From: an uncultured Alistipes sp.
GTDB taxonomy: Bacteria > Bacteroidota > Bacteroidia > Bacteroidales > Rikenellaceae
Length of the DNA stretch: 64,000 bases
Direction of reading: 5' to 3'
Assembly: GCA_944321945.1 (NCBI GenBank)
Contig: CALUNE010000003.1
Location: 1 to 64,000, forward strand
In this document: positions 12,177 through 36,666 of the stretch, one piece after another
How positions within the stretch are numbered: position 1 is the stretch's first letter
Layout of the letters: the number at the start of each line of letters is the position of its first letter
The notes under the pieces: generated by a model
The model's input: only the letters and a program-made list of their open reading frames with translations
What the model was told of the DNA's origin: nothing
The model's database searches: none
Made by a program: the position numbers and the translations under genes

Positions 12177-12224
12177 CACCCTGAAACTTTCAAATCAACC
12201 TTAACCAATCTAAAACTTCACACT

Positions 12225-15491: not shown

Positions 15492-15497
15492 AACACC

Positions 15498-17318: not shown

Positions 17319-17357
17319 TGCGACTAACCGATTCAACACCTGAAAATACCAAACCTT

Positions 17358-17837: not shown

Positions 17838-17858
17838 TCTCCTAAATGAATCGAAGTC

Positions 17859-19886: not shown

Positions 19887-19915
19887 TAACACAAAACTCT
19901 CACACGGCTGATGCC

Positions 19916-19950
19916 ACGGGGCTGTCCGACCAAAGGTCAGACAGCCCCGT
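19916..19950 (+). terminator. strong intra-operon hairpin without U-tract
   Basis: An 11-bp perfect stem (19916-19926 with 19940-19950) is extended inward by partial pairing. It lies 30 bases after the preceding stop. No T-run follows, so it may be a 3'-end-stabilising or attenuating hairpin rather than a full terminator. It would allow higher SusCD than lyase expression. Confidence 0.6.
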
Positions 19951-20019
19951 CATCACCCGGAAACTGCCAAAACGACATTCCTGCACCAGAAAGCAATCAC
20001 CACTGAATACGAAAACCTT

Positions 20020-21960
20020 ATGAAACTGTTAACAAGAGCAATTTGGATCGTGGCCCTGTTCTGCACGCTGTCGGCCTGCTCGAGCGACGACAAGGCTACC
20101 TACACCCCCGGAAGCGGAGGCACCTCACAAGACGGCGGAGATGGAGGTAACACCCCGAGCGGTGTGGGTGACTACTCGCAGCTTACGGCGGCCAATCACC
20201 CCCGAATCATCATGACCGAAGACGATGTCACGGCCATTCGCACCAAACTCGACGCAGGAACAGACGCCAATCTGAAGGCCCTGCACGACTGTATCATCAC
20301 CTATGCCGACAAAGCAGTGACAGCCAAGGATCTCGTCTATCAGCTGGCCGGGAAACGACTGCTCGATGTCTCGACCGAAGCCGCCAACCGGATCATCTCC
20401 TGCTCGTACGCCTACCGACTTACGGGCGAAACGAAATACCTCGACAAGGCCAAAAAGGATATTCAGACGGTTTGCGCCTTCAAGGACTGGAACTCGGCCA
20501 CACACTTCCTCGACGGAGCAGAGATGGCTCATGGCGTAGGTATCGGTTACGACTGGCTCTACAACGAACTGGACGATGCGACCAAGAAAAGCGCCGAAAA
20601 AGCCATTCAGGACTATGCGTTCTACTGCGCACTGAACGGCAAGTGGAACCTCAACTTCTACGAATCGGCCACCAACTGGAACCAGGTCTGCAACGGCGGA
20701 CTGGTCGTAGCGGCAATGGCCATCTACGAGACCTGCACGGATCAGGCCCAGCAGATCATCGACAAGGCTATCGAAAGCAATGCCGCAGCCGTCTCCGAGA
20801 TGTACGATCCCGACGGCAACTACCCCGAAGGCTACGGCTACTGGGGCTATGGCACCGCCTTCGAGTGCATCATGCTCGCCGCCATGGAGTCCTGCACCGG
20901 AACCGACAACGGATTGGCCAGTTCAGACGGATTCAAGAAAACCGGCAAGTGGATTCTCTTCATGGAGGGCATGAACAAGGAGGCCTTCAACTATTGCGAC
21001 TGCGCTCCGTCGAGTGTCGCCATGCCGGCCCTGTGGTACCTGGCCTACAAGTTCAACGACCAGTCGCTGCTCTACGGCGAGCTGATCAAACTCAACGATG
21101 GACGCTACACATCCTCCGATGGTTTGAAATACCTTCCCATGGCCGCCGTTTATGCCAGCAAGTTCGACCTGAACTCCGTCACTCCGCCGACCGACAAACT
21201 CTGGAGCGGGAAGGGCATCAATCCGGTGGTGCTGGTCCACAGCGACTGGAGCTTCTCCGACACGGACAAGTTCCTCGGCATGAAGGCCGGACGCGCCAAC
21301 TACAGCCATGGACACATGGATGTCGGATCGTTCGTCTACGATGCCTACGGCACCCGCTGGTCGGCCGATCTGGGGCTGCAGAGCTACGGAACAATCGAAA
21401 ACGTCACGCTGCCCGGTTATACCGGCAATTTCGGCAGCTATGATCAGGGGTCGTTCCGCTGGGCCGTCTTCCGCTACAACAACTACAACCACAGCACCAT
21501 CACGATCAACGATGCCCTGCACAAGGCCAGCGGACGCGCCGAAATCACCGGCGTGATCAACTCCGAGACTTCGCGGGGTGCCACGATCGACATGACCGAC
21601 ATCCTCGACGACGAGTGCGAAAAGGCCACCCGGACCATCACGCTCGACAACGATACGGATCTGATCGTCAAGGACCAGATCAAGGCCTACTACAACAAGG
21701 CGGCCGACGTGCGCTGGACGATGGTCACCAAGGCCATGCCGGTCGTGGAATCGAATCGGATCGTGCTGCAGGGAAAGACCAAGAACCTCTACCTGACGGT
21801 CACGAGCGAAAAAGGCGTCAAAATCACCCTGAAGACATGGTCGACGGTCGGCGAATCGTACGACGCCAGCAACGCCGGTTATTATGAAGCCGGATTCGAA
21901 GCCCGTGTCACCTCGGGACAGACCGACACATTCACCGTAAAACTCTCACCCAACGAATGA
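20020..21960 (+). CDS. heparinase II/III-family polysaccharide lyase, lipoprotein
   Basis: This 646-residue lipoprotein (lipobox Cys20, then a Gly/Ser-rich linker) has an N-terminal alpha/alpha-toroid region: 'ANHPRIIMTEDDVTAIRTKL', 'GIGYDWLYNEL', 'TNWNQVCNGG', 'YPEGYGYWGYGTAF'. A C-terminal beta-sandwich starts with the heparinase II/III motif 'NYSHGHMDVGSFVYDAYGTR' (H430, H432, D434). Such enzymes beta-eliminate at uronic acids in glycosaminoglycans, alginate or related polymers. The GH88 upstream would remove the resulting unsaturated residue. Exact PL family and substrate cannot be told; hyaluronan/chondroitin/heparosan-like polymers are candidates. No sulfatase is encoded nearby. Confidence 0.85.
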   Translation: MKLLTRAIWIVALFCTLSACSSDDKATYTPGSGGTSQDGGDGGNTPSGVGDYSQLTAANHPRIIMTEDDVTAIRTKLDAGTDANLKALHDCIITYADKAVTAKDLVYQLAGKRLLDVSTEAANRIISCSYAYRLTGETKYLDKAKKDIQTVCAFKDWNSATHFLDGAEMAHGVGIGYDWLYNELDDATKKSAEKAIQDYAFYCALNGKWNLNFYESATNWNQVCNGGLVVAAMAIYETCTDQAQQIIDKAIESNAAAVSEMYDPDGNYPEGYGYWGYGTAFECIMLAAMESCTGTDNGLASSDGFKKTGKWILFMEGMNKEAFNYCDCAPSSVAMPALWYLAYKFNDQSLLYGELIKLNDGRYTSSDGLKYLPMAAVYASKFDLNSVTPPTDKLWSGKGINPVVLVHSDWSFSDTDKFLGMKAGRANYSHGHMDVGSFVYDAYGTRWSADLGLQSYGTIENVTLPGYTGNFGSYDQGSFRWAVFRYNNYNHSTITINDALHKASGRAEITGVINSETSRGATIDMTDILDDECEKATRTITLDNDTDLIVKDQIKAYYNKAADVRWTMVTKAMPVVESNRIVLQGKTKNLYLTVTSEKGVKITLKTWSTVGESYDASNAGYYEAGFEARVTSGQTDTFTVKLSPNE

Positions 21961-24035
21961 CGCTCATGATCAACCAACCCCTGAAAACAGCACTTCTGAC
22001 CCTCATATTGAGCTGCGCCGGATTCTTTACGTCGTTGGCCGCCACCGATCAACCCACGGAAAACGATATGCTGCAGGTCGCATACGAGAAACCCGGAGTG
22101 GCCCAGTCGTTCGTTGCCGGCAAGGAGTGGTTCCCGCTGCCCGCCTACGAGGACCGCAAAGCCTGGGACGAACTGCTCGGCAAGGATGCCCGGAAACTCA
22201 TTAAACAAGGTGAAAGCCTCCTCGATTACGAATGGAAGGTCATCCCCGCAACAGCCTATCTGGCCTTTGAACGCACGGGAGACCGCCGGGCCATGGAAAA
22301 CCCCGAAGGAGCCAACCGCGGCGCCCTGATCAAACTGATTCTCGCCGAACTCGCCGAAGGCAAGGGCCGTTTCATCGACCAGATTGCCAACGGAGTCTGG
22401 CAGGCTTCGCAACAATACTCCTGGGTGCTGTCGGCCCATCAGAGCCATCAGCGGAGCAAGCGTGCACTGCCCGACATGCGCGAACATTTCATCGATCTGG
22501 CCTCGGGCCGCTACGGTTCGATCGTATCGATCGCCTATCACTTCTTCCACAAGGAATTCGACAAGCTCGATCCGTCGATCTCGTACGCCGTCGAAGAGGC
22601 CGTCAAGCGCAATATCCTCGACCCGTATCTGGATCCGAACGAACTGTGGGCCAACTGGTGGCTGGGGCTGGGACGCCCCAACCCCGCGCTGAACAACTGG
22701 ACACCGTGGTGCAATTCGGACGTCATGCTGAGCTTCCTGCTCATGGAAAAGGACCAGGAGCGGCTCGACCAGGCCATTGCCCAGTCGGTGAAGTCGATGG
22801 ACCGATTCTTGAACTACATCCAGAAGGACGGTGCCTGTGAAGAGGGCCCCGGATACTGGGGAGCCGCAGCCGGCAAACTCTACGACTGGCTTCAGATTCT
22901 CTACGACGCATCGGACGGCAAGTTCACGGTCTTCGGCAACGACCGCATCCGTCGTATGGGTGAATTCGTATCGCGCGCCTACATCGGCAACCGTTATGTG
23001 GTCAACTTCGCCGACGCAAGCGCCGTGCAGGATGTTCCCAACGAACTGATCTGGAACTACGGACACGCCGCCGGCAGCCGGGAAATGACCGATTTCGCCC
23101 TCTACTGCATGGCTGACCGCAAGAACAACCGCTTCAAGACCCCCGTCTACCAGAACAACGATGCCTACCGGGCCGTCGAAAACCTGCGGTTCAATCCGCT
23201 GATCCGACAGGCCGTCGATTCGCTCAACCAACAGTTGGAAAGCCACTCGATGGAGGAGGTCCTGCAGGCACTGCGCAAGGATATCCCGACGGCGACGTGG
23301 TACCCCGAAACCGAAATGTGCTTCATGCGCAATTCCTCACAATGGTATCTCGGCACCAAAGGCGGTTACAACAACGAAAGTCACAACCACAACGACATCG
23401 GAACGTGCGTACTCTACATCCGGGATATTCCGGTGCTGGTCGACGCCGGCGTGGGGACCTATACCAAACAGACCTTCAGCAAGGATCGCTACACGATCTG
23501 GTCGATGCAGTGCAACTGGCACAATCTGCCGATGATCAACAGCGTGGCACAGCCATTCGGCGGCCAATATCGCGCCCGGGAAACCCAGTGCAACCTGAAC
23601 CGGGGAACCTTCTCGGTCGAGCTTGCGGGAGCCTATCCCGCAGAGGCAGCCTGCCGAAGCTGGGTGCGCGCCTATCGGCTGACGATGAAGGGCACGCCGA
23701 CGCTCACGATCTCCGACACCTATGCACTCGAACAACGGACCGCTCCCGACATCGAGCACTTCCTCGTCAAAGGCGAAGTATTCCTGCCGGGCGATCAGAT
23801 CGAAGGTCGTACGATCGCCGAAGGGGAACTGTTGATCCGCTGCCCGGAGGGAATCACCGTGCGGATGACCTATCCCCGGACACTGAAAGCCTCGGTGGAT
23901 GTCCAGGAGCTCACGGATCCGAAACTGAGCAAGGTCTGGGGACCGAGTCTGCGACGCATCAATCTGACCTCGGCGCCCGACGCTCCGGTCAAGGGCCGGT
24001 ACGAATTCCGGCTGAGCGAAGTGACCACGAAATAG
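21957..24035 (+). CDS. second heparinase II/III-family polysaccharide lyase
   Basis: This 692-residue protein starts with an ATGA overlap onto the previous stop (21957). A second ATG at 21966 gives an equally good Sec signal peptide ending 'TSLAA'. It has an alpha/alpha toroid ('ELWANWWLGLGRPNPALNNWTPWCNSDVM', 'DGACEEGPGYWGAAAGKLYDWL') then a heparinase II/III C-terminal domain with 'ESHNHNDIGTC' (H476, H478, D480). It has no lipobox, so it is a soluble periplasmic enzyme, unlike its anchored neighbour. This suggests an endo (surface) and exo/oligosaccharide (periplasm) split. Sequence similarity between the two is low, so they are not a recent duplication. Confidence 0.85.
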   Translation: MTLMINQPLKTALLTLILSCAGFFTSLAATDQPTENDMLQVAYEKPGVAQSFVAGKEWFPLPAYEDRKAWDELLGKDARKLIKQGESLLDYEWKVIPATAYLAFERTGDRRAMENPEGANRGALIKLILAELAEGKGRFIDQIANGVWQASQQYSWVLSAHQSHQRSKRALPDMREHFIDLASGRYGSIVSIAYHFFHKEFDKLDPSISYAVEEAVKRNILDPYLDPNELWANWWLGLGRPNPALNNWTPWCNSDVMLSFLLMEKDQERLDQAIAQSVKSMDRFLNYIQKDGACEEGPGYWGAAAGKLYDWLQILYDASDGKFTVFGNDRIRRMGEFVSRAYIGNRYVVNFADASAVQDVPNELIWNYGHAAGSREMTDFALYCMADRKNNRFKTPVYQNNDAYRAVENLRFNPLIRQAVDSLNQQLESHSMEEVLQALRKDIPTATWYPETEMCFMRNSSQWYLGTKGGYNNESHNHNDIGTCVLYIRDIPVLVDAGVGTYTKQTFSKDRYTIWSMQCNWHNLPMINSVAQPFGGQYRARETQCNLNRGTFSVELAGAYPAEAACRSWVRAYRLTMKGTPTLTISDTYALEQRTAPDIEHFLVKGEVFLPGDQIEGRTIAEGELLIRCPEGITVRMTYPRTLKASVDVQELTDPKLSKVWGPSLRRINLTSAPDAPVKGRYEFRLSEVTTK

Positions 24036-24057
24036 AATCCGACAACCGATCCCTATC

Positions 24058-25743
24058 ATGAAAAGCAGCACACTTCTTCTGACGGCAGTTGCGATCGGAG
24101 CCCTGTCCCTCCTGTATTCATGCGGCAGATCCGAGGAACAAAAACTGCACGAAGCAGCCATGCAGGAGTATCTCGAACCAATCCGCCCGGGATACGAAGG
24201 ACGAAATCCCTATTGGAATACCTTTGCCACAAAATTCATCTATGCGCCGGCATTCGGATTCCAAAAGGTCGAAGGAGCCGTAAAATACCGTTTTACGATC
24301 TGCGATCTGGGGACAGCCATGACCGAATCGACACGCTATCGCAAGGATGCGCTGACCGAGGATCCCGAACCGCGCTGGATCCTTGCCGAAGGAGAGCCCA
24401 CGGGACGATTCTGGAGTTTCGAGGCCGATACACCCGAGGCTTCGCTCGCCCCCGTGTGGAACGAGATTCCGGTGGGCAAGGTCCGCGTGCGGGTCGAGGG
24501 CCTCGATGCACGGGGTGAGGTCACGGGGGTGGCTGGTGAACGCGAATTCCTGCGCGACTTTTCCTTCCAGCCCCCCTATCCGGGTCCCGTGAGATCCTAT
24601 CGCGAAGCGGCAAAAATGGCTGCGCTCTATATCCACGAACTGCCGACCATCCAGCATTGGATGACCTCCGACAAGCCCGACATGAGCTACCGTCACAACA
24701 CCTACGCCTGCAAGATCATCGGTGCAACGATCCAGCTCGAGGTGCTGATTGCGAAACTGCTGCCCCGCCATCGCGACGAGGCTCTGACCATCGCTCGCAA
24801 CGCCGCCCGCTTTCTGATGGATCAGAGCCAGCCGGCCGATGCACCGCTGGCCTTCTTTCCGCCGACCTACTACTCGAATCTGATCTCCTCGTCGCGCGAA
24901 GAGAACCAGGGTAAAACGATGACCATGGAGGCCTGCGTGGCGGGAAACGCCCTGCTCGATCTCTACGACGTCACCGGCGAGCGTATCTATCTCGACCGGG
25001 CGCTGGCCATCGCCTCGACCTACGCCCGACTGCAGGCCGAAGACGGCTCCTATCCAATCAAAATGGACTACGAAACCGGCGTGCCGGTCAACAACGGCAA
25101 GGCCATGCTCACCGTGCTGATGGAGTATTTCCACCGGCTGGAACGCGATTACGGAGTCACCGACTTCCACTCCCACCTGACCAAGGCTGAAAAGTGGATG
25201 AATGATGTCGCCCTCGCATCGTTCGACATGACCGGACAGTTCGAGGACATGACCGTGCTGAACCAGCAGCCTTACCAAAACCTGACCAACTGTGCATCGG
25301 CACCTTATGCGTCATGGCTGCTGAAAAAGGAGGCCCGTACGGAACAGGAGATGCGGGATGCCGTCGATCTGATCCGATTCAGCGAAGATCAGTTCGTCTG
25401 CTGGGACGTATTGCCCAACGCCGACGGTGTGAAGACAATCTGCACACCCTCGGTCTATGAACAGTACGGCTACCGGGTACCGATCGACAACAGTTCGTGC
25501 GTGGTGGCCAACGCTTTGCTGGACCTTTACGAAGCCACCGGCGATAAACTGGCCTATGCCAAGGCCAAGGCACTGATCGACAATCTGACCGTGGTACAAA
25601 ACGCACTCGACGGACTGATTCCGACGTCGCTCGACGTGCGTGGCGGCGCAAAGAACAAGATCCGTGGATTCTGGACCAACTGTACTTACGCCTCGATCGT
25701 CACCCTGCTCAGAATGGCCGAAATCACCGGTGAGGAACTCTGA
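24058..25743 (+). CDS. lipoprotein with predicted alpha/alpha-barrel sugar-enzyme domain
   Basis: This 561-residue protein has a lipobox at Cys22. After an N-terminal beta-rich part (about 35-185; 'FGFQKVEGAVKYRFTICD' looks Fn3-like) comes a repeated helical-hairpin region. The repeats are 'ACVAGNALLDLYDVTGERIYLDRALAIASTYARLQAEDGSYP' and 'SCVVANALLDLYEATGDKLAYAKAKALID', as in six-hairpin glycosidases, epimerases and C5-epimerases. I cannot assign a family or catalytic residues. Placement 22 bases after the second lyase suggests a role on uronic-acid oligosaccharides. A glycoside hydrolase, lyase or epimerase are all possible. Confidence 0.65.
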   Translation: MKSSTLLLTAVAIGALSLLYSCGRSEEQKLHEAAMQEYLEPIRPGYEGRNPYWNTFATKFIYAPAFGFQKVEGAVKYRFTICDLGTAMTESTRYRKDALTEDPEPRWILAEGEPTGRFWSFEADTPEASLAPVWNEIPVGKVRVRVEGLDARGEVTGVAGEREFLRDFSFQPPYPGPVRSYREAAKMAALYIHELPTIQHWMTSDKPDMSYRHNTYACKIIGATIQLEVLIAKLLPRHRDEALTIARNAARFLMDQSQPADAPLAFFPPTYYSNLISSSREENQGKTMTMEACVAGNALLDLYDVTGERIYLDRALAIASTYARLQAEDGSYPIKMDYETGVPVNNGKAMLTVLMEYFHRLERDYGVTDFHSHLTKAEKWMNDVALASFDMTGQFEDMTVLNQQPYQNLTNCASAPYASWLLKKEARTEQEMRDAVDLIRFSEDQFVCWDVLPNADGVKTICTPSVYEQYGYRVPIDNSSCVVANALLDLYEATGDKLAYAKAKALIDNLTVVQNALDGLIPTSLDVRGGAKNKIRGFWTNCTYASIVTLLRMAEITGEEL

Positions 25744-25817: not shown

Positions 25818-28800
25818 ATGATGAGGAAACTCTACATCTCGATTCTAATTCTGTTGCTCGGAATGATCCTGCCGGCCGCAGGGATCAATCCCTATCGTCG
25901 CTATGACGTCCGGAGCGGACTTTCCGACAACAGCGTCAAGGATATTTGCCAGGACAGCAAAGGATACATGTGGTTTGCCACGAAAGATGGCTTCAACCGT
26001 TTCAACGGATATCGATTCGACGTTTTCGGCTCCTCCCTGACGGGAAATCTGCTCAATATCGACGTCATCTGTCCCCACAACGACAACGAACGTATCTGGC
26101 TGGGGTGCACGCATGCCCTCATGCTCTTCAATCCCAAGGATGAAAGTCTGCAACGATTCGAGATGCGCAGCAACGACGGATCAACCATCAACAGCTGCAA
26201 CAGCCTCTACTACGACCAATCGGGAAATCTCTGGATCGGTACCAACAACGGCCTCTATCGATGGAACGAAACCAACGGAGAACTAAACCATTACAAACTG
26301 AAAGGCCCCTGCGGAAAGCCCTGCTACAGCATTCGGATCATCACCGGCAACAACCAGGGAGACGTCTGGGTCGGGACTACCGATGGCCTCTATCGCCTCG
26401 GTAATTTGAAAGAGGGCGCCCATTATCACTGGCCCTTGCGCCCAAAACCCGGAAGCCAGATACTGGGCGACAACGAAATCACGGCCATCGTCCAGACCGA
26501 ACCGGGCAAACTGCTGATCGGAACCCAGAACGGACTGTTGGCCGAACTGGACATCGAAAGCGGAAGGTTCCGCGCATTCCCGGCCGTGGATGCCTCCGGC
26601 AAAACCTTCTCCGTCACACGCATCCACACGATCTTCCGCAAATCGGCCCACTTCTACATCGTGGGATCCGACAGCGGCCTTTTCTACTTCAACCGGCTCG
26701 ACAACACCTGGGCCACATCGAGAGACGATCTGGCCAATGAAAGCGTCTACAAATGCTTCCGCGACCGCGAAGGCGGCATCTGGATCGGAACCTTCTTCTG
26801 CGGGGTCAACTACCTGTCGCCCCGTCAGGACGAGATCAAATGGTACTACGACGACGGACGCCCCTCCTCGCTGCAAGGCAATGCCGTCAGCCAGTTCTGC
26901 GAAGATGAAAAGGGCAATCTGTGGATTGCCACCGAAAACGGAGGTCTGAACTACTTCGACCCCCGAACCGGAACCTTTACCGACTACTCCTCGAAAAGCC
27001 ACAACAACCTCCATGCACTCTGCCTCGATGGTGAGGATCTCTGGATCGGCACCTTCTCACGGGGTCTGGACCGCATGAATACCCGTACGGGACGGGTCAC
27101 CAACTACATGAATATTCCCGAAGATTCGACCTCGCTGAGCAACGACTACGTCTACGTCATCCACAAGGCCGACGACAACCGGCTCTATGTCGGAACCATG
27201 AGCGGGCTGTGCATTCTGGACAAACGCACGGGCCGCTTCACCCGCGTGCGGGAACTGACCGACTACTTCGTCTATGACATCACCGAGGACGATCGCGGCA
27301 ACATCTGGGTGGCATCCCGCGTACACGGTATCTACCGCTACTCGAAACACGACGGAACGTGGACAAACTACCGCCACAATCCGCTCGACCCCTTATCGCC
27401 TCCGAGCGACAAGTTCATCCGCGTCTATATCGACACCAACCAGCGCATCTGGTTCTGCGGCGAAAGCGACGGCATCTGCCGCTACGACCCCGAAATCGAC
27501 GGATTCGAGAATTTCGGGCCGAACGAAGGCCTGCCCAGCAGCGTCTATTACGGCATACTCGATGACGGGGCGGGCAATCTGTGGCTCTCCTCCAATCAGG
27601 GAATCATCCGCTACAACCCCGAACTGCGCACCCACATCCGTTATACGACCGAAGACGGATTCCAAAGCAACCAGTTCAACTTCCGGTCGTCATTCAAGGC
27701 CGACGACGGAACCTTCTACTTCGGCGGCATCAACGGATTCAACCATTTCTCACCCTTCAACATCTCGGTGAACAAGGTCAAACCCAATGTGGCCATCTCG
27801 TCGGTGAGCATGCACGGCACCAACAAGGTCTCCACCAGTTCCGAACAACGGATCATCCCGGACGGACACCTGGAGGTCTCCAGCAAAACCATTTCATTCG
27901 ATATCAATTTCGAATGCCTGAGCTACGTGGCCCCCGGACAGAACCGGTATGCCTGGAAACTCAACGGACCGAACAACGACTGGGTATACACCGACCAGCA
28001 TTCGGTTTCGTTCATGAAACTGCCTGCCGGACACTACACCTTCTCGGTCATGGGATGCAACAACGACGGCTACTGGAGCCAGGCCTCGTGCGACCTGGAG
28101 ATCGGGATCCTGCCCCATCCGTTTCTGAGCCCCATGGCCAAGATCGGCTATCTGCTGCTGGCCCTCGTGCTCATCGTCCTGACCGTCAAGTTCATACTCA
28201 AGCGCCAGAGCGAAAAGAAAGAGAAAAAACTCATCGAAGCCAAGATCAACTTCTTTACACAGATCGTCCACGAAATCAAGACACCGGTTTCGCTCATCAA
28301 GTCGCCGCTCGAACACGTCATCGAGACCGGCCGCTGGAATACGGACGTGGCGGCCAACCTCAACATCATGAAACGCAACGTCGACCGGTTGCTGGAACTC
28401 ATCCGCCAACTGCTCGACTTCCGCAAGATCGGTGACGAAGGCTTCCGCCTGCGGTGCAGCGACACGGACATCAGTCTGCTCATCCGGGAGACCGTCGACC
28501 GTTTCCGCACGTCGGCCGAAGCCATCACGATCGAAACCGAACTGCCCGCCACTCCGATGATCTTCCACGTCGACAAGGAGGCCCTGACCAAAATTCTGAG
28601 CAATCTGCTCGCCAATGCGCTGAAATATGCCCGCCATACGATCCGCGTCACGCTGACCGACCTGTCCGATACGAAGAAGGAGGAGCGGAAATTCCGCCTG
28701 TCGGTACGCGACGACGGCCCCGGAATTCCAACCGCAAGCCGCAAAAAGGTCTTCGATGCCTTCTATCAGGAGAACCCCTATTCGGGACAGGGCGTCGGCA

Positions 28801-29888
28801 TCGGTCTGAGCCTGGTAAAACTGCTCGTCGAAAAGCATAACGGTAAAATCGCCATCAACGATGCCGACGCCGCGGGCGGTTGCGAACTCTCGATCGAGAT
28901 TCCCGACGTACGGGAACCCGGCTCCGCAAAGCAACTCCCGGCAGCGGCTACCGCCAAGGAGGAGGCCACGACCCAGGACGAGGAGGCCCCCGCAACGAAG
29001 CAACACTGCATCATGATCGTCGAGGATACGCCCGACATGCTGGAGTTCCTCTACAAGAACTTCGAGGATACGTACGACGTACTCCCGGCCCGGAACGGCC
29101 GCGAAGCACTCGACATACTCAAGAAACGTTCGTGCGATCTGATCATCAGCGACATCCTCATGCCCGAAATGGACGGTTACGAACTGCTCGTGCGTGTCCG
29201 CAGCGACGAACTGCTCTGTCACATTCCCTTCATTCTGCTCTCGGCGATCGATTCGGTCGACTCGAAGATCAAGGGACTGGAGTCCGGAGCCGACGCCTAC
29301 ATCGAGAAACCCTTCTCGCTGAGCTACATCAAGGCGACGGTCGAGAGTCTGCTCGAGAACCGCGAACGCGCCTTCCGCCACTTCGCCTCGGAGCCGAACC
29401 TGCAATACGAAAAGGATACGATCGGCAGCAGCGACCGTGCATGGCTCGACAAACTGACGGGGATCATCTCCGAAAACCTCACCAACGAGGCACTGTCGGT
29501 GGATCTGCTCGTCGAGCAGATGGCGCTGAGCCGTTCGAGTCTGCAGCGCAAGCTGAAGGGGCTGACCGGCACCTCGCCCAACGAATACATCCAGCTGGTA
29601 CGGCTGAAGACTGCGGCCCAACTGCTCCGCAAGGGCGAGCTGCGCATCAACGAAATCTGCTATCTAACCGGTTTCAGCAGCATGTCGTGGTTTGCCAAGT
29701 GCTTCTCCAAGCAGTTCGGCATGCGCCCGAAGGACTACATGAAGCAGAACCAGAACGAAGCGGTGCCCGATGAGAAAAACGCACCGGATGCGGATCCGAA
29801 CTCCGATCCGTCCCACGCATCCGACGCCCCGGCCCCACGCAAAGAGACCCCGACCCGAAAAAACAAAGGACAAACACCTAACAAATAA
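25818..29888 (+). CDS. hybrid two-component system (HTCS) glycan sensor-regulator
   Basis: This 1356-residue one-protein sensor-regulator has a signal peptide (1-22), then periplasmic two-component propeller repeats ('DNSVKDICQDSKGYMWFATKDGFNRFNGYRF', 'GNLWIGTNNGLYRWN' and so on). A Y_Y_Y domain follows (about 700-765) and one TM helix ('GYLLLALVLIVLTVKFIL'). The kinase has 'VHEIKTP', phospho-acceptor His818, then an ATPase with 'NALKYA', 'DDGPGIP' and 'GVGIGLSLVKLL'. A receiver has 'IMIVEDTPD' and phospho-acceptor Asp1112 in 'IISDILMPEMDGYELL'. A C-terminal AraC HTH completes it. It probably senses an oligosaccharide released by this locus and activates the promoter at 10904. The DUF1080 gene starts 11 bases later. 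Confidence 0.95.
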   Translation: MMRKLYISILILLLGMILPAAGINPYRRYDVRSGLSDNSVKDICQDSKGYMWFATKDGFNRFNGYRFDVFGSSLTGNLLNIDVICPHNDNERIWLGCTHALMLFNPKDESLQRFEMRSNDGSTINSCNSLYYDQSGNLWIGTNNGLYRWNETNGELNHYKLKGPCGKPCYSIRIITGNNQGDVWVGTTDGLYRLGNLKEGAHYHWPLRPKPGSQILGDNEITAIVQTEPGKLLIGTQNGLLAELDIESGRFRAFPAVDASGKTFSVTRIHTIFRKSAHFYIVGSDSGLFYFNRLDNTWATSRDDLANESVYKCFRDREGGIWIGTFFCGVNYLSPRQDEIKWYYDDGRPSSLQGNAVSQFCEDEKGNLWIATENGGLNYFDPRTGTFTDYSSKSHNNLHALCLDGEDLWIGTFSRGLDRMNTRTGRVTNYMNIPEDSTSLSNDYVYVIHKADDNRLYVGTMSGLCILDKRTGRFTRVRELTDYFVYDITEDDRGNIWVASRVHGIYRYSKHDGTWTNYRHNPLDPLSPPSDKFIRVYIDTNQRIWFCGESDGICRYDPEIDGFENFGPNEGLPSSVYYGILDDGAGNLWLSSNQGIIRYNPELRTHIRYTTEDGFQSNQFNFRSSFKADDGTFYFGGINGFNHFSPFNISVNKVKPNVAISSVSMHGTNKVSTSSEQRIIPDGHLEVSSKTISFDINFECLSYVAPGQNRYAWKLNGPNNDWVYTDQHSVSFMKLPAGHYTFSVMGCNNDGYWSQASCDLEIGILPHPFLSPMAKIGYLLLALVLIVLTVKFILKRQSEKKEKKLIEAKINFFTQIVHEIKTPVSLIKSPLEHVIETGRWNTDVAANLNIMKRNVDRLLELIRQLLDFRKIGDEGFRLRCSDTDISLLIRETVDRFRTSAEAITIETELPATPMIFHVDKEALTKILSNLLANALKYARHTIRVTLTDLSDTKKEERKFRLSVRDDGPGIPTASRKKVFDAFYQENPYSGQGVGIGLSLVKLLVEKHNGKIAINDADAAGGCELSIEIPDVREPGSAKQLPAAATAKEEATTQDEEAPATKQHCIMIVEDTPDMLEFLYKNFEDTYDVLPARNGREALDILKKRSCDLIISDILMPEMDGYELLVRVRSDELLCHIPFILLSAIDSVDSKIKGLESGADAYIEKPFSLSYIKATVESLLENRERAFRHFASEPNLQYEKDTIGSSDRAWLDKLTGIISENLTNEALSVDLLVEQMALSRSSLQRKLKGLTGTSPNEYIQLVRLKTAAQLLRKGELRINEICYLTGFSSMSWFAKCFSKQFGMRPKDYMKQNQNEAVPDEKNAPDADPNSDPSHASDAPAPRKETPTRKNKGQTPNK

Positions 29889-29898
29889 AACCAATACC

Positions 29899-31203
29899 AT
29901 GACCCTTATCACGAACAAAAGGCTGATTGCACCTCTGTGCGGAGCATTGATGCTCGCTCTGGGAGCCTCCTCCTGCGCTCCACAGCCCAACACCCTGACC
30001 AAAAAGGAGATTGCCGACGGCTGGCAGCTGCTCTTCGACGGCAAAACGCTCGACCAGTGGAAGGACTACAACGGCGATTCGCTGACGATGCCGTGGCACG
30101 TGGTCGACGGATGCATCCAGGCAGCCGGCGACGGAAGCGACCTGACGGGCTATATCGTCACGCGCAAACAGTACGAAAACTTCATCCTCGAATGGGACTG
30201 GAAGCTCTCCCACGGCGGTAACAGCGGCATGCTCTACCACGTGGTGGAGGACCCCTACTTCGCCGTGCCCTACGTAACCGGTCCGGAATACCAGCTCATC
30301 GACGAGAAGGGTTGGGAAGAGGACAATGCCCCCACCAAACTCGAGGAGTGGCAGCGTCTGGGCGTCGACTACGCCATGCATCTGCCCGACAAGTCCGCCA
30401 TGCAGGTCCATCCGCAGGGTGAATGGAACTCCTCGCGCATCGTCTTCGACAACGGACACGTCGAACACTGGCTCAACGGCCGCAAGATCCTCGAATTCGA
30501 GGCCTGGACCGACGACTGGTTCATCCGCAAACACAGCGGCAAGTGGGAAAACGCACCCGAATACGGCCTGGCCCATCGCGGAGTGATCTGCCTGCAGGAT
30601 CACGGTTATCCCGCCTCGTTCCGCAATCTGAAGATCAAGGAGCTGCCGCGCAAGGCCGGCCGCGAAATCGACCTCTTCAACGGCGAGGACCTCTCGGGTT
30701 GGGAGATCTACGGCACGGAGAAATGGTACGTCGACGCCGACGGCAACCTCGTCTGCGAAAGCGGCCCCGACAAGCAGTACGGCTATCTGGCCACGCGCGA
30801 ATACTACGACGACTTCGATCTGACGGCCGAATTCCGCCAGCTGTCGAACGGCAATTCGGGGATCTTCTTCCGCTCGTTCGTGGAGCCCGAAGCCCGGATT
30901 CACGGCTGGCAGTGCGAGGTGGCACCCCGCAACCAGGGCACGGGCGGCATTTATGAATCCTACGGCCGCGGATGGCTCGCACAGACACCCGCCGACAAGG
31001 AGGTGATGCTCAACGAGGGATCGTGGAACACACTGCGGCTGCGCGTCGAGGGCGACCACGTCCAGACGTGGCTCAACGGCGAAAAGATCGTCGACCTGCA
31101 CGACGCCAAAATCGGTGCCGCCCAGGGCCGCATCGCCCTCCAGATCCACGACGGCGGCGGCATCAAGGTACAATGGCGCAGTCTGAAACTGACGACACTC
31201 TGA
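29899..31203 (+). CDS. tandem DUF1080 (3-keto-disaccharide hydrolase-type) lipoprotein
   Basis: This 434-residue lipoprotein (start at ATG 29899; lipobox 'GASSC', Cys26) contains two copies of DUF1080 (PF06439). The first (about 38-245) starts 'DGWQLLFDGKTLDQWKDY' and carries 'GNSGMLYHV' and 'GPEYQLID'. The second (about 252-434) starts 'REIDLFNGEDLSGWEIYG' with 'GNSGIFFRS' and 'GWQCEV'. DUF1080 proteins have a concanavalin-like fold and include 3-keto-glycoside hydrolases/lyases that cleave after a sugar C3-OH has been oxidised. It is 11 bases after the HTCS and 34 bases before a Tat-exported Gfo/Idh/MocA protein, the probable source of the 3-keto substrate. An upstream in-frame extension lies inside the HTCS gene and is rejected. 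Confidence 0.88.
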   Translation: MTLITNKRLIAPLCGALMLALGASSCAPQPNTLTKKEIADGWQLLFDGKTLDQWKDYNGDSLTMPWHVVDGCIQAAGDGSDLTGYIVTRKQYENFILEWDWKLSHGGNSGMLYHVVEDPYFAVPYVTGPEYQLIDEKGWEEDNAPTKLEEWQRLGVDYAMHLPDKSAMQVHPQGEWNSSRIVFDNGHVEHWLNGRKILEFEAWTDDWFIRKHSGKWENAPEYGLAHRGVICLQDHGYPASFRNLKIKELPRKAGREIDLFNGEDLSGWEIYGTEKWYVDADGNLVCESGPDKQYGYLATREYYDDFDLTAEFRQLSNGNSGIFFRSFVEPEARIHGWQCEVAPRNQGTGGIYESYGRGWLAQTPADKEVMLNEGSWNTLRLRVEGDHVQTWLNGEKIVDLHDAKIGAAQGRIALQIHDGGGIKVQWRSLKLTTL

Positions 31204-31237
31204 ATATCGAACCACAACCGAAAAACCACTTCATATC

Positions 31238-32521
31238 ATGGGACTCAATCGTAGAGATTTTTTGAAAACGGCGGGTGCCGCGACCCTCTTCACCATCGTT
31301 CCCCGCTGGGTGCTGGGAGGCCCGAATCACATCGCCCCGAGCGATCAGCTCACCAAAGGCATTATCGGCGTCGGAGGCATCGGACGCTCGAGCTATCACT
31401 TCACCAGCGACGAACGCTGCCGGCTGGTGGCCGTCTGCGACGTCGACCAGAACCATCTGGACAGCGCCGTGGAACTGGGCCGCAAGAAGTTCGGCAAGAC
31501 CCTGAAGGCCTACCACTTCTACCGCGACCTGATCAACGACCCGAACGTCGACATCGTCCACATCGCCACCCCGCCCCACTGGCACGGCATCATGGCCGTC
31601 GAGGCGGCGCGCGCCGGCAAGGATATCTGGTGCGAAAAGCCGATGACGCGCACCATCGGCGAAGGCAAACGCATCATGGAGGCCGTCAAGCAGAACGGCC
31701 GCATCTTCCGTCTGAACACGTGGTTCCGCTTCCAGGACACCTTCTACGGACTGGGCACGACCGTCGAACCGCTCAAGAAACTCGTCGACAGCGGCATGCT
31801 CGGATGGCCGCTGAAGGTGACCATCTCGGGTGCCACGGGCTTCACGTGGAAATTCTTCTGGGTGGGCAAGGAGAATCTCACCCCGCAGCCCGTTCCTGCG
31901 GCGCTGGACTACGATCTGTGGCTGGGTCCGGCCCCCTACAAGCCCTACAACGTACACCGCACGCACCAGACTTTCCGCGGATACTGGGACTATGACGGCG
32001 GCGGTCTGGGCGATATGGGCCAGCACTACATGGACCCCGTACAGTACCTGCTGGGCAAGGACAACACCTCGCCGGTAAAGGTCGAGGTGGACGCTCCGCA
32101 GCAGCATCCCGATGCCATCGGCATCTGGCGCCGCATCGTCTACACCTACGACGACGGCTGCCAGATCATCCTCGAAGGCGAGGGGTACGAAAGCAAGGGA
32201 AAGGTGCCCTACATCGAGGGCCCGAAGGGCAAGGTCTACAAGGGATTCGAGTGTACGATCCCCGACGTGATGAACCGCATCGCCGAGCTGCCCGATCCCG
32301 AACCGCAGAATACCGACTTCATCCGCTGCGTCCACACCCGCGAACGCTTCGCCTTGGACGAAATCAAGGGTTACCACAGTGCCACACTGGTGAACATGGC
32401 CCTCTGCGCCCTGCGTCTGAACCGCACGCTGAACTTCGACCCGCAGAAGCAGCTCTTCATCGACGACGATGCCGCCAACCGCCTGATCGACCAACCGATG
32501 CGCTCTCCCTGGAAAATCTGA
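31238..32521 (+). CDS. Tat-exported Gfo/Idh/MocA oxidoreductase
   Basis: This 427-residue NAD(P)-dependent oxidoreductase has a twin-arginine signal, 'NRRDFLK' at residues 4-10 plus a hydrophobic stretch, so it should be folded with cofactor before export to the periplasm. Rossmann region: 'GIIGVGGIGRSSYH', 'VAVCDVD', 'VHIATPPHWHGIMAVEAARAGKDIWCEKPM' with the family EKP motif. The C-terminal Gfo/Idh/MocA domain has 'GGGLGDMGQHYMDPVQYLLG'. Proposed job: oxidise or reduce the C3 hydroxyl of a glycoside so the DUF1080 partners can cleave it. Tightly bound NAD would be needed because free NAD is scarce in the periplasm. Confidence 0.88.
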   Translation: MGLNRRDFLKTAGAATLFTIVPRWVLGGPNHIAPSDQLTKGIIGVGGIGRSSYHFTSDERCRLVAVCDVDQNHLDSAVELGRKKFGKTLKAYHFYRDLINDPNVDIVHIATPPHWHGIMAVEAARAGKDIWCEKPMTRTIGEGKRIMEAVKQNGRIFRLNTWFRFQDTFYGLGTTVEPLKKLVDSGMLGWPLKVTISGATGFTWKFFWVGKENLTPQPVPAALDYDLWLGPAPYKPYNVHRTHQTFRGYWDYDGGGLGDMGQHYMDPVQYLLGKDNTSPVKVEVDAPQQHPDAIGIWRRIVYTYDDGCQIILEGEGYESKGKVPYIEGPKGKVYKGFECTIPDVMNRIAELPDPEPQNTDFIRCVHTRERFALDEIKGYHSATLVNMALCALRLNRTLNFDPQKQLFIDDDAANRLIDQPMRSPWKI

Positions 32522-32550
32522 CCGCCAACCACCCCAAAAAAACGCATACC

Positions 32551-35328
32551 ATGAAGAAACTGATTCTCATACTGTTTGCCGGACTGCTTCTGCCCCTGGT
32601 CTCGGGGGCGCAGGAGGTCCGCGATGACCGCCAGCGGACCACGTCGACCATCATTGCCGACGCTCTGGCCCAGCTTCCGGCCGAAACCCCCGACCTCTAC
32701 AACGAACTGATGAAGGAGCTGGCCGCCACGGGTGCCGCCGGCATCCGCGAAATGGCCGACATGCTCGTGCCCGCAGCGAAGGGCCCCAATGCTACGGTGG
32801 AATATGCCCTGAGCGGCGTCGTGCATTACGTCACGGCCAAGGGTCAGGAGGCTGCCCGAGCCGGGATCCGGAAAGGACTGGCCGAGAGCGTGGCCGCCTG
32901 CACGGACAAGCCCAATCAGGCCTTTCTGCTCTCGTTGCTGCAACTCTGCTCGACGGCCGAGGATGTGGAGATCTTTGCACGCTACGTCGATGACGCATAC
33001 CTGGCCGACGCAGCCGTGCGGGGTCTGATCGCCACGCCGGGCAGCGAAGCGATGCTGACCGACCTGATCCGCCGCAGCGACCGTCCCGTCATCCGGCTGG
33101 CCGATGCCGCCGCAGCAAAAGGAGTTACGGAGGTCGAGCCGACGCTGCTCGACTGGGCCGCAAAGGCCGACGACGACCCGACGCGCGAAGCCGTCTATCA
33201 CGCACTGGGTTGCTGCGGAAGCAAGGCCTCGCTCCGAACGCTGGCCAATGCGGCTGCCGCTTCGGATTACGACTTTGCACCGAACGATGCCACGGCCTCC
33301 TACCTCCGGCTGCTGAACAGGCTGGCCGAACAGGGCGACACGAAGAGTACGCTCGCAGCGGCCCGAGCTCTCGGCAAGGCCACGGCCCGTGCGAACGTGC
33401 GCGCCGCCGCCCTCGAACTGCAACTCAAGTACGATACCGGCAAACGTACCCGGCTGCTGCTGACAGCCCTCAAGGATTCGAACCGCGCGTATCGCGGAGC
33501 GGCGCTCGATGCCGCCAACGACTTTGCGGACGAGGCGCTCCAGGCTGCCGTGGTCAAGAAACTTCCATCGCTGGGTGACGAAGCCCGCACGGATGTCATC
33601 AACTGGCTGGGAAGCCGCCATGCCGCCTCGCAGATCGGAGCCGTCACGCCGTGGATCGAATCGTCGAACGACGAACTGGCCGCGGCAGCCATCCGCGCAG
33701 CCGGCCGAATCGGTGGCGACGAGGCTCTCGAAGCCCTGATCGCAGCCCTCGACGGCAAACACGCCGCCGAAGCCGCCTCCGCTCTGCGGGCCTTCAACGG
33801 AAAGGTGAACGACGGCCTGATTGCGGCTCTCGACCGCGACCCGCAGATCCAGATCCAGGCTCTGAAACTGATCGCCGTACGCCGCATCTCGGCCGCCTCG
33901 GAACAGGTCTTTGCCCTGCTCGCCTCCGACAACCGCGCGGTTCACGATGCCGCCGTAGAGGCGCTCTCGGGCATCTGCACGATGCAGGAGTTCGGACCGC
34001 TGTGCGACCTGCTGGACAAGGCCTCGGGCGATGAGATCGGCAAGTATCAGGCCGCCCTGAAGAATGCCCTCGCCTCGCAGCAGCCCGAAGCCCAATACGC
34101 CAAAGTCTCGGAACGCATGGCCTCGGCTCCCGAAAAGACCCGCTACTATCCGCTTCTGGCCCAGTCGGGCGTTCGTGCAGCCATCGACGATCTGCTCGCC
34201 GCACAGGACCGCGAGGCCGCATTCCGGGCGCTCCTGACGGTCGAGAATCCCGAAATGGCCAACGTTCTCTACGATCTGGCGCGGCAGAACCCCGCATGGA
34301 CCGATGCCGCCCTGACGCGTTACACCGACTTCATCGCCGCAGCTGCTGCCGACAAACAGGTCGAGGGCTTCCGCAAGGGACTCGAACTCAACCCCTCGGC
34401 CGCCGTCTGCAACAAACTGCTCCGTGCCCTGGCCCGGACCTATTCGCTGCCGGCCGTCAGCATCATCGCCCCCTATCTCGACAATCCGCAAACCGAGGCG
34501 GCGGCTGCCGAGGCCGTCAAGACCATCGCGGCCAAGAACCCCGGCATGGGCGGTGAAACGGTGGTGGCCGCACTCGAAAAGGCCCGCGACAGCTACGCCG
34601 CACGCGCCAAAAGCGATCCCGATGCCGGTTATGCCGTCGACGAAATCAAGGGACTGCTGGCCCGTTATGCGGCCATTCCGCGTTTCGAACTCCCGGCCGA
34701 CGAGGCTGCCGAAGGTTTCGAGATCCTCTTCGACGGACTTTCGCTCGAAAAATGGACCGGCAACAAGACCAACTATGTTCCCCAGGAGGGTACGATCTAC
34801 GTCACGGCTCAGTTCGGCGGCAGCGGCAACCTCTACACCATCAAGGAGTACGGCGACTTCATCCTGCGCTTCGAATTCGCCTTCGACCGCGCCGGCGTCA
34901 ACAACGGCATCGGTATCCGCACGCCGATGGGCGTCGACGCCGCCTATCACGGCATGGAGATCCAGGTGCTCGACCACGACGCCCCGATCTACAAGAACCT
35001 GCGCATCTACCAGCAGCACGGATCGGTCTACGGCATCATCCCCGCCCAGAAACACGTCAAGTTCGGCGAGCTGGGCACGTGGAACACCGAAGAGATCCGC
35101 GCCGTGGGTGACCACATCACCGTCACGGTCAACGGCGAGGTGATTCTCGACGGCAACATCCGCCAGGCCTGCAAGGGGCACAACGTCGCCCCCGACGGCT
35201 CGAACAAAAACCCCTACACGGTCGACGGCCGCAACCACCCCGGCCTCTTCAACAAACGCGGACACATCGGTCTGCTGGGCCACGGCCCCGGCATCCAGTT
35301 CCGAAACATCCGCATCAAGGAACTCTAA
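32551..35328 (+). CDS. HEAT-repeat / DUF1080 fusion protein
   Basis: This 925-residue protein has a Sec signal peptide ('MKKLILILFAGLLLPLVSGAQ'). About 680 residues of alanine-rich helical HEAT-like repeats follow (for example 'AAAIRAAGRIGGDEALEALIAALDGKHAAEAASALRAF'). A C-terminal DUF1080 domain (about 724-925) begins 'EGFEILFDGLSLEKWTG', with 'GVNNGIGIRTP', 'GMEIQVLDHD' and 'GHIGLLGHGPGIQFRNIRI'. The start at ATG 32551 excludes a longer frame inside the previous gene. It follows the Tat oxidoreductase by 29 bases. The HEAT solenoid may scaffold the oxidoreductase or bind glycan; the catalytic domain probably acts on 3-keto glycosides. Confidence 0.88.
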   Translation: MKKLILILFAGLLLPLVSGAQEVRDDRQRTTSTIIADALAQLPAETPDLYNELMKELAATGAAGIREMADMLVPAAKGPNATVEYALSGVVHYVTAKGQEAARAGIRKGLAESVAACTDKPNQAFLLSLLQLCSTAEDVEIFARYVDDAYLADAAVRGLIATPGSEAMLTDLIRRSDRPVIRLADAAAAKGVTEVEPTLLDWAAKADDDPTREAVYHALGCCGSKASLRTLANAAAASDYDFAPNDATASYLRLLNRLAEQGDTKSTLAAARALGKATARANVRAAALELQLKYDTGKRTRLLLTALKDSNRAYRGAALDAANDFADEALQAAVVKKLPSLGDEARTDVINWLGSRHAASQIGAVTPWIESSNDELAAAAIRAAGRIGGDEALEALIAALDGKHAAEAASALRAFNGKVNDGLIAALDRDPQIQIQALKLIAVRRISAASEQVFALLASDNRAVHDAAVEALSGICTMQEFGPLCDLLDKASGDEIGKYQAALKNALASQQPEAQYAKVSERMASAPEKTRYYPLLAQSGVRAAIDDLLAAQDREAAFRALLTVENPEMANVLYDLARQNPAWTDAALTRYTDFIAAAAADKQVEGFRKGLELNPSAAVCNKLLRALARTYSLPAVSIIAPYLDNPQTEAAAAEAVKTIAAKNPGMGGETVVAALEKARDSYAARAKSDPDAGYAVDEIKGLLARYAAIPRFELPADEAAEGFEILFDGLSLEKWTGNKTNYVPQEGTIYVTAQFGGSGNLYTIKEYGDFILRFEFAFDRAGVNNGIGIRTPMGVDAAYHGMEIQVLDHDAPIYKNLRIYQQHGSVYGIIPAQKHVKFGELGTWNTEEIRAVGDHITVTVNGEVILDGNIRQACKGHNVAPDGSNKNPYTVDGRNHPGLFNKRGHIGLLGHGPGIQFRNIRIKEL

Positions 35329-35337
35329 ATACTCACC

Positions 35338-35376
35338 GGAAAAGCCCGCATCCGCTTCGGCATGCGGGCCTTTTCC
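35338..35376 (+). terminator. terminator-like hairpin closing the glycan operon
   Basis: A 14-bp arm (35338-35351) pairs with 35362-35376 through one bulged base, around a 10-nt loop. The T-rich end is inside the stem (CCTTTTCC). It begins 9 bases after the HEAT-DUF1080 stop. It probably limits read-through into the next oxidoreductase gene, which has no clear promoter of its own. Confidence 0.7.
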
Positions 35377-35412
35377 AAATCTCCGTCCATACTACAAGTG
35401 TGTCTACAAATC

Positions 35413-36666
35413 ATGGATGAAATCACATTTTCGAACACTCCGGTGACGATCGTTGCCATCGGCGGCGGCAACCGCACGAACAAATACCTCGAATATGCCG
35501 TGCGGCACCCCGAACGCCTGCAACTCGTAGGAATTGTCGAACCCAATCCGCTGCGGCGCCATGCCCTGGCCGAGAAGTTCGGACTAAAACCCGAACAATG
35601 TTTCGAGGATTACAAGCTCTTCTTCCGTAATCCGCTGAAGGCCGATGCCGTGCTGATCGCCACCCCCGAAAACATCCACTTCGAACCCTGCATGCTCGCC
35701 ATCGAGGCCGGTTACCACGTGCTGCTCGAGAAACCCATCGCCCGCACCCTCGCCGAATGCCGGGCCATCGCCCGGGCCGCCCGCAACAAGGGGGTCATCG
35801 TCGGCGTCTGCCACGTGCTGCGTTACCACCCCTACTTCATCCGGATCAAAGAGATCGTCGATTCGGGCGAACTCGGTCAGATCATCTCGATCAACCACAA
35901 CGCCGCAGTCGGCATCGACCGCATGACCCACGGATACGTCCGCGGCATGTGGCGCCGCGAGGAGATCACCAACCCGATCCTGATCTCGAAGTGCTGCCAC
36001 GACATCGATTTCCTGCTGTGGCTCACCTCGTCGCAATGTCGGAAACTCACGTCGTTCGGGTCACTGCGCTGGTACCGCCCCGAGAATGCCCCCGCCGGAA
36101 GCTCCGATCGCTGCATCAACTGCCCGATCGAACCCTCGTGCCCCTACTCGGCCGTCGATCTTTACCGCACGCGCCGCGACTGGATCTCGAATTTCGACGT
36201 CCCCGAAGGAGCCACCATCGACCAGGTCATCGACCGCGAACTGAGAACCGGTCCCTACGGACGATGTGTCTTTCACTGCGACAACGATGTGGCCGATCAT
36301 CAGGTCATCGCCATGGAGATGGAAAACGACGTCACGATTTCTTTCACGATGGACACCTTTACGCTCGACGACCAGCGCCAGACCCATATCCGCCTCACAC
36401 AGGGCGAGATCGACGGCGACGAACGCTCGCTGCGCATCCGTTGGTTCCGCGGCGCCCGCGAGGAGGTGCTCGACTTCTCGTCGCTCATCGGAACGCCCTA
36501 CCATGCCGGTGCCGACCTCAACCTGATCGAGGATTTCGTCCACACGCTGGCCTGCAAGGAGCACAACTTCCGCACCTCGATCGAACAATCGGTCGAGAGC
36601 CACCGGATCTGCTACGAAGCCGAGCGCAGCCGGCTCACGGGCCAGACCATTCGTCTGGACGATTAG
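35413..36666 (+). CDS. cytoplasmic Gfo/Idh/MocA oxidoreductase with Cys cluster
   Basis: This 417-residue NAD(P)-dependent oxidoreductase has no signal peptide. ATG 35413 places the Rossmann motif 'VTIVAIGGGNRTNKYL' at the N-terminus; the longer frame starts inside the terminator hairpin. Further motifs: 'LVGIVEPNPLRR', 'AVLIATPENIHFEPCMLAIEAGYHVLLEKPIA' and 'SKCCHDIDFLLWL'. An inserted cysteine cluster, C234-x2-C237-x5-C243 with 'PYSA', could bind a metal. It probably acts in the cytoplasm on imported sugars, for example reducing a 3-keto sugar back, completing the cassette begun at 29899. Exact substrate unknown. Confidence 0.85.
   Translation: MDEITFSNTPVTIVAIGGGNRTNKYLEYAVRHPERLQLVGIVEPNPLRRHALAEKFGLKPEQCFEDYKLFFRNPLKADAVLIATPENIHFEPCMLAIEAGYHVLLEKPIARTLAECRAIARAARNKGVIVGVCHVLRYHPYFIRIKEIVDSGELGQIISINHNAAVGIDRMTHGYVRGMWRREEITNPILISKCCHDIDFLLWLTSSQCRKLTSFGSLRWYRPENAPAGSSDRCINCPIEPSCPYSAVDLYRTRRDWISNFDVPEGATIDQVIDRELRTGPYGRCVFHCDNDVADHQVIAMEMENDVTISFTMDTFTLDDQRQTHIRLTQGEIDGDERSLRIRWFRGAREEVLDFSSLIGTPYHAGADLNLIEDFVHTLACKEHNFRTSIEQSVESHRICYEAERSRLTGQTIRLDD

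Follow-up and report, generated by a model that had tools for sequence, protein, structure and literature searches.

A four-gene cassette downstream of a SusCD/HTCS locus

The window analyzed here is a stretch of 64,000 nucleotides from an uncultured Alistipes sp. (contig CALUNE010000003.1, positions 1 to 64,000). It contains a cassette of four consecutive genes, here named DUFx2, GFO1, HEATDUF and GFO2 (Table 1), that probably serve 3-keto-glycoside cleavage and that follow a SusCD/hybrid two-component sensor (HTCS) polysaccharide utilization locus, called the PUL below. A preliminary description had read the four genes as encoding a double DUF1080 protein, a twin-arginine GFO/IDH/MocA oxidoreductase, a HEAT-DUF1080 fusion and a cytoplasmic-type GFO/IDH/MocA oxidoreductase, and our analysis recovered the same domains and coordinates. 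In Pfam, DUFx2 and HEATDUF match PF06439 with 285.3 and 122.1 bits, respectively (curated cut-off 26.8), while the TAT_signal model PF10518 scores 21.6 bits on GFO1, slightly below its cut-off of 22.7. The signal peptide and lipobox of DUFx2, the signal peptide of HEATDUF and the lack of an export signal in GFO2 were all judged by eye. No match for DUFx2 or HEATDUF was found in NCBIfam.

AlphaFold models were obtained for DUFx2 (pLDDT 82.8, pTM 0.80) and HEATDUF (pLDDT 90.1, pTM 0.58). In structure matching, the HEAT part of the latter resembles CAND1 and karyopherins, i.e. a generic solenoid. Several HEATDUF orthologues, with reading frames of about 1130 amino acids (L048:2591-5923 and similar loci), carry a second C-terminal DUF1080 domain, whereas HEATDUF of the window has one.

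Table 1. Cassette genes and neighboring features in the window
Feature	Position	Strand	Description
DUFx2	29899..31203	+	Lipoprotein-like; PF06439 (DUF1080) twice: domain A, E-x-Q type; domain B, Q-x-E type
GFO1	31238..32521	+	Twin-arginine GFO/IDH/MocA oxidoreductase; PF01408 and PF19051
HEATDUF	32551..35328	+	Signal-peptide-like start; HEAT alpha-solenoid of ~680 residues (PF13646); C-terminal PF06439; directly 3' of GFO1
GFO2	35413..36666 (open reading frame from 35362)	+	Cytoplasmic-type GFO/IDH/MocA oxidoreductase; probably transcribed separately here
Terminator-like hairpin	35338..35376	.	Between HEATDUF and GFO2; 17 pairs, two one-base bulges, -26.1 kcal/mol; 3' arm ends CTTTTCC
HTCS of the PUL	25818..29888	+	Stop 10 bases ahead of DUFx2
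PUL	10977..25743	+	GH88 10977, SusC 12225, SusD 15498, PL35-like lyase 20020, heparinase-like 21957, unknown 24058; outside the conserved cassette

Conservation of the GFO1-HEATDUF pair

HEATDUF lies directly after GFO1 in 80/80 named loci, which are the best 80 of 545 confirmed ones and were collected with a query derived from loci first found via HEATDUF. As this adjacency recurs throughout, the cassette arrangement is real and not due to chance. A fairer test is provided by the search of family genomes with GFO1 as the only query: 57 of 268 genomes have a GFO1 orthologue, and all 57 also have a HEATDUF match. Four family genomes (G033, G105, G188 and G230) have a HEATDUF match, via its DUF1080 part, and no GFO1. 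In a sample of the phylum, GFO1 was found in 15 of 395 genomes, our own included, and at 12 of 14 distant Bacteroidota loci a HEATDUF match lies beside GFO1, in four of them as the DUF1080 part alone. GFO1 and HEATDUF are thus a near-obligate pair. The twin-arginine start of GFO1 is also widespread: R-R was found in 60 of the 80 named loci and R-K in 12, and of the eight missed by the pattern, five read RRxF(F/M)K.

The two other genes are accessory, since in 56 of the 80 named loci both are missing from the stretch covered. DUFx2 is present in 19 named loci and GFO2 in 18; thirteen have both, six DUFx2 alone and five GFO2 alone (raw counts that ignore kinship, with some loci shortened by contig ends). 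Sixty other genomes gave a match in the family search, and in 32 of them the surroundings of HEATDUF were also inspected, which makes 33 loci together with the window; this set is not independent of the named loci, as 11 of the 80 overlap it. Fifteen of the 33 loci contain DUFx2, accompanied by GFO2 in 13 and by a GFO2 fragment only in two (G152 and G153), and 18 lack DUFx2.

By their labels, nearly all named loci come from Bacteroidales and one from Akkermansia. On the latter contig, labelled uncultured Akkermansia and possibly mis-binned or transferred, the order is GFO1-HEATDUF-GFO2-DUFx2 (L146:10001-16653). At two loci (L040 and L041) a GFO2 fragment (residues 5-98) lies beside HEATDUF and is followed by a gene for a GH109-like oxidoreductase.

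Evidence for 3-keto chemistry

The comparison relies on PDB entries 8tda, 8v31, 8rr2, 9fbe, 8tdf and 8tdh, which we take to represent the 3-keto pathway of B. thetaiotaomicron BT2156-BT2158 and its Alistipes 'AL' counterpart. The chains nearest to GFO1 are 8tdf and 8tdh, and the same chains are nearest to the BT2158-type protein encoded elsewhere in this genome (~1000 bits). Residues K134, D259 and H263 of GFO1 are invariant in 80/80 named loci; K, D and H of GFO/IDH/MocA proteins are presumably the catalytic residues. In GFO2, K and H are kept in 18/18 loci, and KCCH replaces D-x-x-x-H.

For the eliminating lyase of B. thetaiotaomicron, PMC13273386 describes the H275N variant as hydration-deficient. 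Chain 9fbe_B has H changed to N within a QDHG motif, and we therefore took the His of this motif as H275. The preliminary description had raised the case of DUF1080 domains devoid of active-site residues; for H275, the one published residue checked, the alignment shows the equivalent His in all three DUF1080 domains of the window. Among named loci that reached 45% identity and 80% coverage it is retained in 19/19 sequences of domain A, 18/18 of domain B and 76/76 of HEATDUF. These tallies replace earlier ones over 33, 31 and 108 loci, which include duplicate genomes. The alignment also separates two types of DUF1080 domains: E-x-Q, comprising domain A, HEATDUF and the BT2157 orthologue of this genome, and Q-x-E, comprising domain B and the first domain of a protein encoded on contig C12 of the genome.

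The first matches of the DUFx2 and HEATDUF models are 3u1x, 4jqt and other uncharacterized DUF1080 entries, followed by the 3-keto enzymes 8tda, 8rr2 and 8v31. Could the DUF1080 domains be ordinary GH16-like hydrolases, with the oxidoreductases acting on the released sugars? A Thermogutta DUF1080 protein hydrolyzes xanthan and beta-glucans, according to PMC10881899. However, the closest characterized relatives with solved structures are 3-keto eliminases/hydratases with the same His, and every named locus combines a twin-arginine oxidoreductase with a DUF1080 protein, which makes such hydrolases very improbable here.

Other 3-keto operons and Tat genes

Genes resembling BT2158, BT2157 and BT2156 abut the module at two loci, L122 and L153; in the latter they come to within ~10 bases of GFO1, as measured from match ends. 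Genes of the twin-arginine translocation (Tat) system are also found near the pair. In four genomes (G170, G011, G133 and G013) tatC is placed between HEATDUF and GFO2, and in G260 it is near HEATDUF; in G013 a TatA gene stands beside tatC in the cassette. Three of these five tatC loci recur, with tatA, as named loci (L084, L095 and L104). The contig of L084, on which the cassette is present, is labelled A. montrealensis, a cultivable Alistipes. TatC was detected in 55 of the 57 family genomes with GFO1 and in 122 of the 211 without it (raw counts, in which kinship, completeness and contig ends are ignored).

The window itself has no homologue of TatA, TatC or the BT2156-like TIM-barrel protein (tblastn, E 1e-4). 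Absences in this genome are weak evidence, as it is 77.65% complete. On its contig C13 (L008:7867-12384) lie genes for TatA and TatC, for an oxidoreductase of the BT2158 type that scores 1002 bits against 8tdf, for a BT2157/AL2-type protein with 520 bits against 8v31 (an entry titled Alistipes 3-keto-2-hydroxy-glucal-hydratase) and for a TIM-barrel protein. The tatA and tatC genes flanking this BT2158/BT2157/BT2156-type operon are the only ones found in the genome, one of each. As the BT2157/AL2 orthologue sits on C13, neither DUFx2 nor HEATDUF is that orthologue; it is 33% identical to domain A and 27% to HEATDUF. With the true orthologues on C13, the cassette of the window is a second, apparently uncharacterized system.

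Two further arrangements were observed. In seven genomes, given as examples (G007, G008, G138, G150, G151, G153 and G179), tatC and a BT2158-type gene are 3-4 kb apart. Contig C12 (L007:9298-14622) of the genome studied here carries a cassette with a double DUF1080 protein in the domain order of 4jqt, a twin-arginine GFO enzyme, a membrane-like protein of 74 amino acids, an ApbE flavin transferase and a second GFO enzyme with a twin arginine and a lipobox-like Cys. Conceivably, the C12 cassette lets electrons from 3-keto chemistry leave by way of a flavin.

Relation of the cassette to the PUL

The preliminary description had placed the cassette 11 bases after an HTCS and in line with lyases, a GH88 and SusCD. 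All of these were found upstream, and the closeness holds, although the gap between the HTCS stop and the DUFx2 ATG measures 10 bases. The closest PDB entry of the GH88 protein (10977) is 3wiw. The lyase starting at 20020 is closest to 8khv/8khw and next to 9o3q, titled 'PL35 chondroitinase', and is heparinase II/III-like; so is the protein starting at 21957, which scores slightly below the Pfam cut-off. The proteins starting at 17358 and 17859 have no Pfam match; the latter (17859-19886, 675 amino acids), judging by its sequence, may be a surface protein of the fimbrillin type encoded by the PUL. For the lipoprotein-like W561 (24058-25743, 561 amino acids) no match was found in Pfam, NCBIfam or PDB sequences, and the NCBIfam search gave nothing for the PUL proteins tested. 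As a guess, the PUL may act on a glycosaminoglycan (GAG)-like glycan or on some other glycan with uronates.

These neighbors raise the possibility that the cassette is a functional arm of the PUL, a uronate-rich glycan being cut by the lyases and GH88 and also by a redox route under HTCS control, which would be compatible with 3-keto chemistry. The cassette begins just past the HTCS stop on the same strand, and both it and the PUL are kept in the sister genome G151 (identity to the window 97% for GFO1, 94% for DUFx2 and 91% for HEATDUF), where W561 is present as well. PDB chain 8tdi is titled 'Glucuronide-3-dehydrogenase', and in the family GFO1 and PL35-like genes tend to co-occur (27/57 genomes with GFO1 and 45/211 without, raw counts ignoring kinship). 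Other SusC/SusD pairs lie near GFO1-HEATDUF in G614 (L162), L165 and L117, and at L162 a SusD-like match precedes GFO1 by 1.3 kb, with both on one strand. Among the 14 phylum loci, SusC is present in three, SusD in two and an HTCS-like gene in three.

Against these observations stands the synteny within the genus. In G010 the same PUL (72-92% identity; GH88 76%, SusC 91%, HTCS 72%) is likewise flanked by the RNase R and V-ATPase genes, and the latter come straight after its HTCS, with no cassette and no W561. That genome (84% complete) yielded no GFO1 orthologue, its best GFO1-like match having E = 5.5e-30. Of 15 DUFx2 loci examined, the window and G151 are the only two where the PUL adjoins the cassette. 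Among the other 13 loci of the genus, the G011 contig starts inside DUFx2, and the 12 with the upstream flank in view show no adjoining HTCS or SusD match; the neighbors identified there are infB-nusA, hisIE, a BatA-like gene, an S41 protease and a DUF6377 protein. A distant SusC-like receptor (27-28%) lies 4-5 kb off and divergent in G152 and G153, and another ~15 kb off in G179. SusC occurs in only 3/80 named loci, and SusD in 1/80 (L117).

Because G010 has the PUL without the cassette and 12 genus loci have the cassette without the PUL, this PUL and this cassette are separable, and the link to the SusCD/HTCS locus is specific to one lineage. That G010 has the site without a cassette also makes adjacency to a PUL in one genome a poor guide to a shared substrate. 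A PUL-specific cassette as a general rule is rejected by synteny; unrelated SusC/SusD pairs are near GFO1-HEATDUF in a minority of loci, and proximity of the pair to SusCD genes arose more than once. The suggestion that one glycan is attacked by both lyase and redox routes agrees with the adjacency in the window and G151 and is at odds with the separability elsewhere, so that we give it little weight and consider a functional arm of the PUL unlikely. It is possible, judging from the 10-base gap, that the cassette has come under HTCS co-regulation in this lineage.

Hairpin and operon structure

The terminator-like hairpin makes a single four-gene operon doubtful, as by computed fold it lies ahead of GFO2. 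It spans the ATG at 35362, and the ATG at 35413 is therefore the likelier start of GFO2. A similar hairpin is found at the same spot in L039, L042, L043 and L044, while L045, L046, L057 and L067 have other hairpins there, without a T tail. In L088, L089, L091 and L093 the hairpin is absent or weak and GFO2 follows 24-48 bases after HEATDUF, so GFO2 can belong to the operon elsewhere.

Scans for regulatory signals added little. A scan of 300 bases upstream of genes for the Bacteroidetes-type promoter, with TAnnTTTG as the consensus we presume, gave a site only before GH88 and was uninformative. The sigma-70-like scan was near chance (6 vs 3.5), as was the terminator scan (16 vs 13.7), whose list does not contain the 35338-35376 hairpin.

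Proposed function

These data are best read as redox (3-keto) cleavage, given the homology, the conserved active-site residues and the BT2158/2157/2156-like genes adjoining the module in two relatives. The cassette is probably a portable module for the periplasmic cleavage of 3-keto-glycosides, paralogous to the BT2156-BT2158/Alistipes pathway and forming a branch of it. In such a module GFO1 would leave the cytoplasm through Tat, presumably in folded form with the nicotinamide cofactor bound, and would oxidize the C3 hydroxyl of a terminal sugar. The DUF1080 domains of DUFx2 and HEATDUF would then eliminate the aglycone to give a 2-hydroxy-3-keto-glycal and rehydrate it, and the resulting 3-keto sugar could be reduced by GFO1 itself, in a redox-neutral cycle, or be taken up and then reduced by GFO2 in the cytoplasm. 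A probable role of the HEAT solenoid is to dock GFO1 or the substrate beside its lyase domain.

Several observations weigh against this interpretation. The best PDB sequence matches of DUFx2 and HEATDUF are 3u1x and 4jqt, titled merely putative glycosyl hydrolase, and a DUF1080 protein with endo-glucanase activity has been reported (PMC10881899). The best NCBIfam model for GFO1, NF058561 (BT_2158_fam glycoside 3-dehydrogenase), scores 142.5 bits against a cut-off of 750 and covers residues 4-283 only, which places GFO1 outside the characterized family; going by its sequence, it may work like that family without belonging to it. As the true orthologues are already present on C13, the module may also perform other chemistry than they do. 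The 80/80 adjacency arises partly from the selection of the loci and the HEATDUF-derived query; two of the distant loci (L169 and L175) have no HEATDUF match, and four (L167, L168, L172 and L173) have the DUF1080 part alone. The frequent absence of DUFx2 and GFO2 points in the same direction.

Another explanation is that GFO1 and HEATDUF process a glycan of the cell itself, in the envelope or in glycoconjugates, with the same chemistry and no catabolic role. The high conservation of GFO1 (82% mean column identity among 13 family sequences, 59-74% identity across the phylum) would fit this, as would its single copy in all but G258 of the 57 genomes (the G060 copy is split over two contigs) and the rarity of SusCD genes near the pair. 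However, GFO1 is sparsely distributed, in 57/268 family and 15/395 phylum genomes, so the pair is not generally essential, and L122 and L153 link it to the BT2156-2158-type operon. We thus regard an envelope role as quite unlikely.

A more elaborate version of the 3-keto module can be proposed, though we hold it to be doubtful: the Tat-exported C3 oxidase GFO1 and the lyase on the HEAT superhelix would form a fixed complex channelling the 3-keto-glycal, the E-x-Q and Q-x-E domains of DUFx2 would serve different steps, and the Tat translocase of these bacteria would be inherited largely with such 3-keto operons.

Oxidation-elimination cleavage of glycans escapes the usual classification of glycan-degrading enzymes. 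No description of HEAT-DUF1080 proteins or of the GFO1-HEATDUF pair was found in the open-licence library searched, although they may be mentioned in the main papers on the B. thetaiotaomicron pathway. The pathway is thus known, and this branch of it is apparently undescribed within the literature searched. If our interpretation is correct, a pair found across Bacteroidales, apart from the characterized operon, extends the 3-keto pathway, gives HEAT-DUF1080 fusions a role and hints at the job of Tat in these gut bacteria. The interest lies in a widespread and testable pair, rather than in new chemistry or a demonstrated partnership with the PUL.

Comparison with known systems

Compared with SusCD/HTCS PULs for uronate-rich (GAG-like) glycans, the cassette is a neighbor of one in the window genome and G151 and no conserved member of it. 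With BT2156-BT2158 and the Alistipes system it shares the PF06439 fold with its His and a GFO/IDH/MocA oxidoreductase with a twin-arginine-type start, and the two are linked in L122 and L153. It differs in that GFO1 of the window is far outside BT_2158_fam and the lyase domain is fused to a HEAT superhelix; the window also has a second protein with two unlike DUF1080 domains, and neither a BT2156-like TIM-barrel protein nor a Tat homologue. The double DUF1080 protein BT3469 (PDB 4jqt) and DUFx2 are alike in having one E-x-Q and one Q-x-E domain, but their order in DUFx2 is reversed, whereas the C12 copy of the same genome has the order of 4jqt. Finally, the lactose pathway proposed for Caulobacter, consisting of LacABC plus a DUF1080 protein according to PMC9007349, resembles the cassette in that periplasmic oxidation is followed by cleavage by a DUF1080 protein; Caulobacter uses the membrane dehydrogenase LacABC for the first step, while the window has a Tat-type GFO enzyme.

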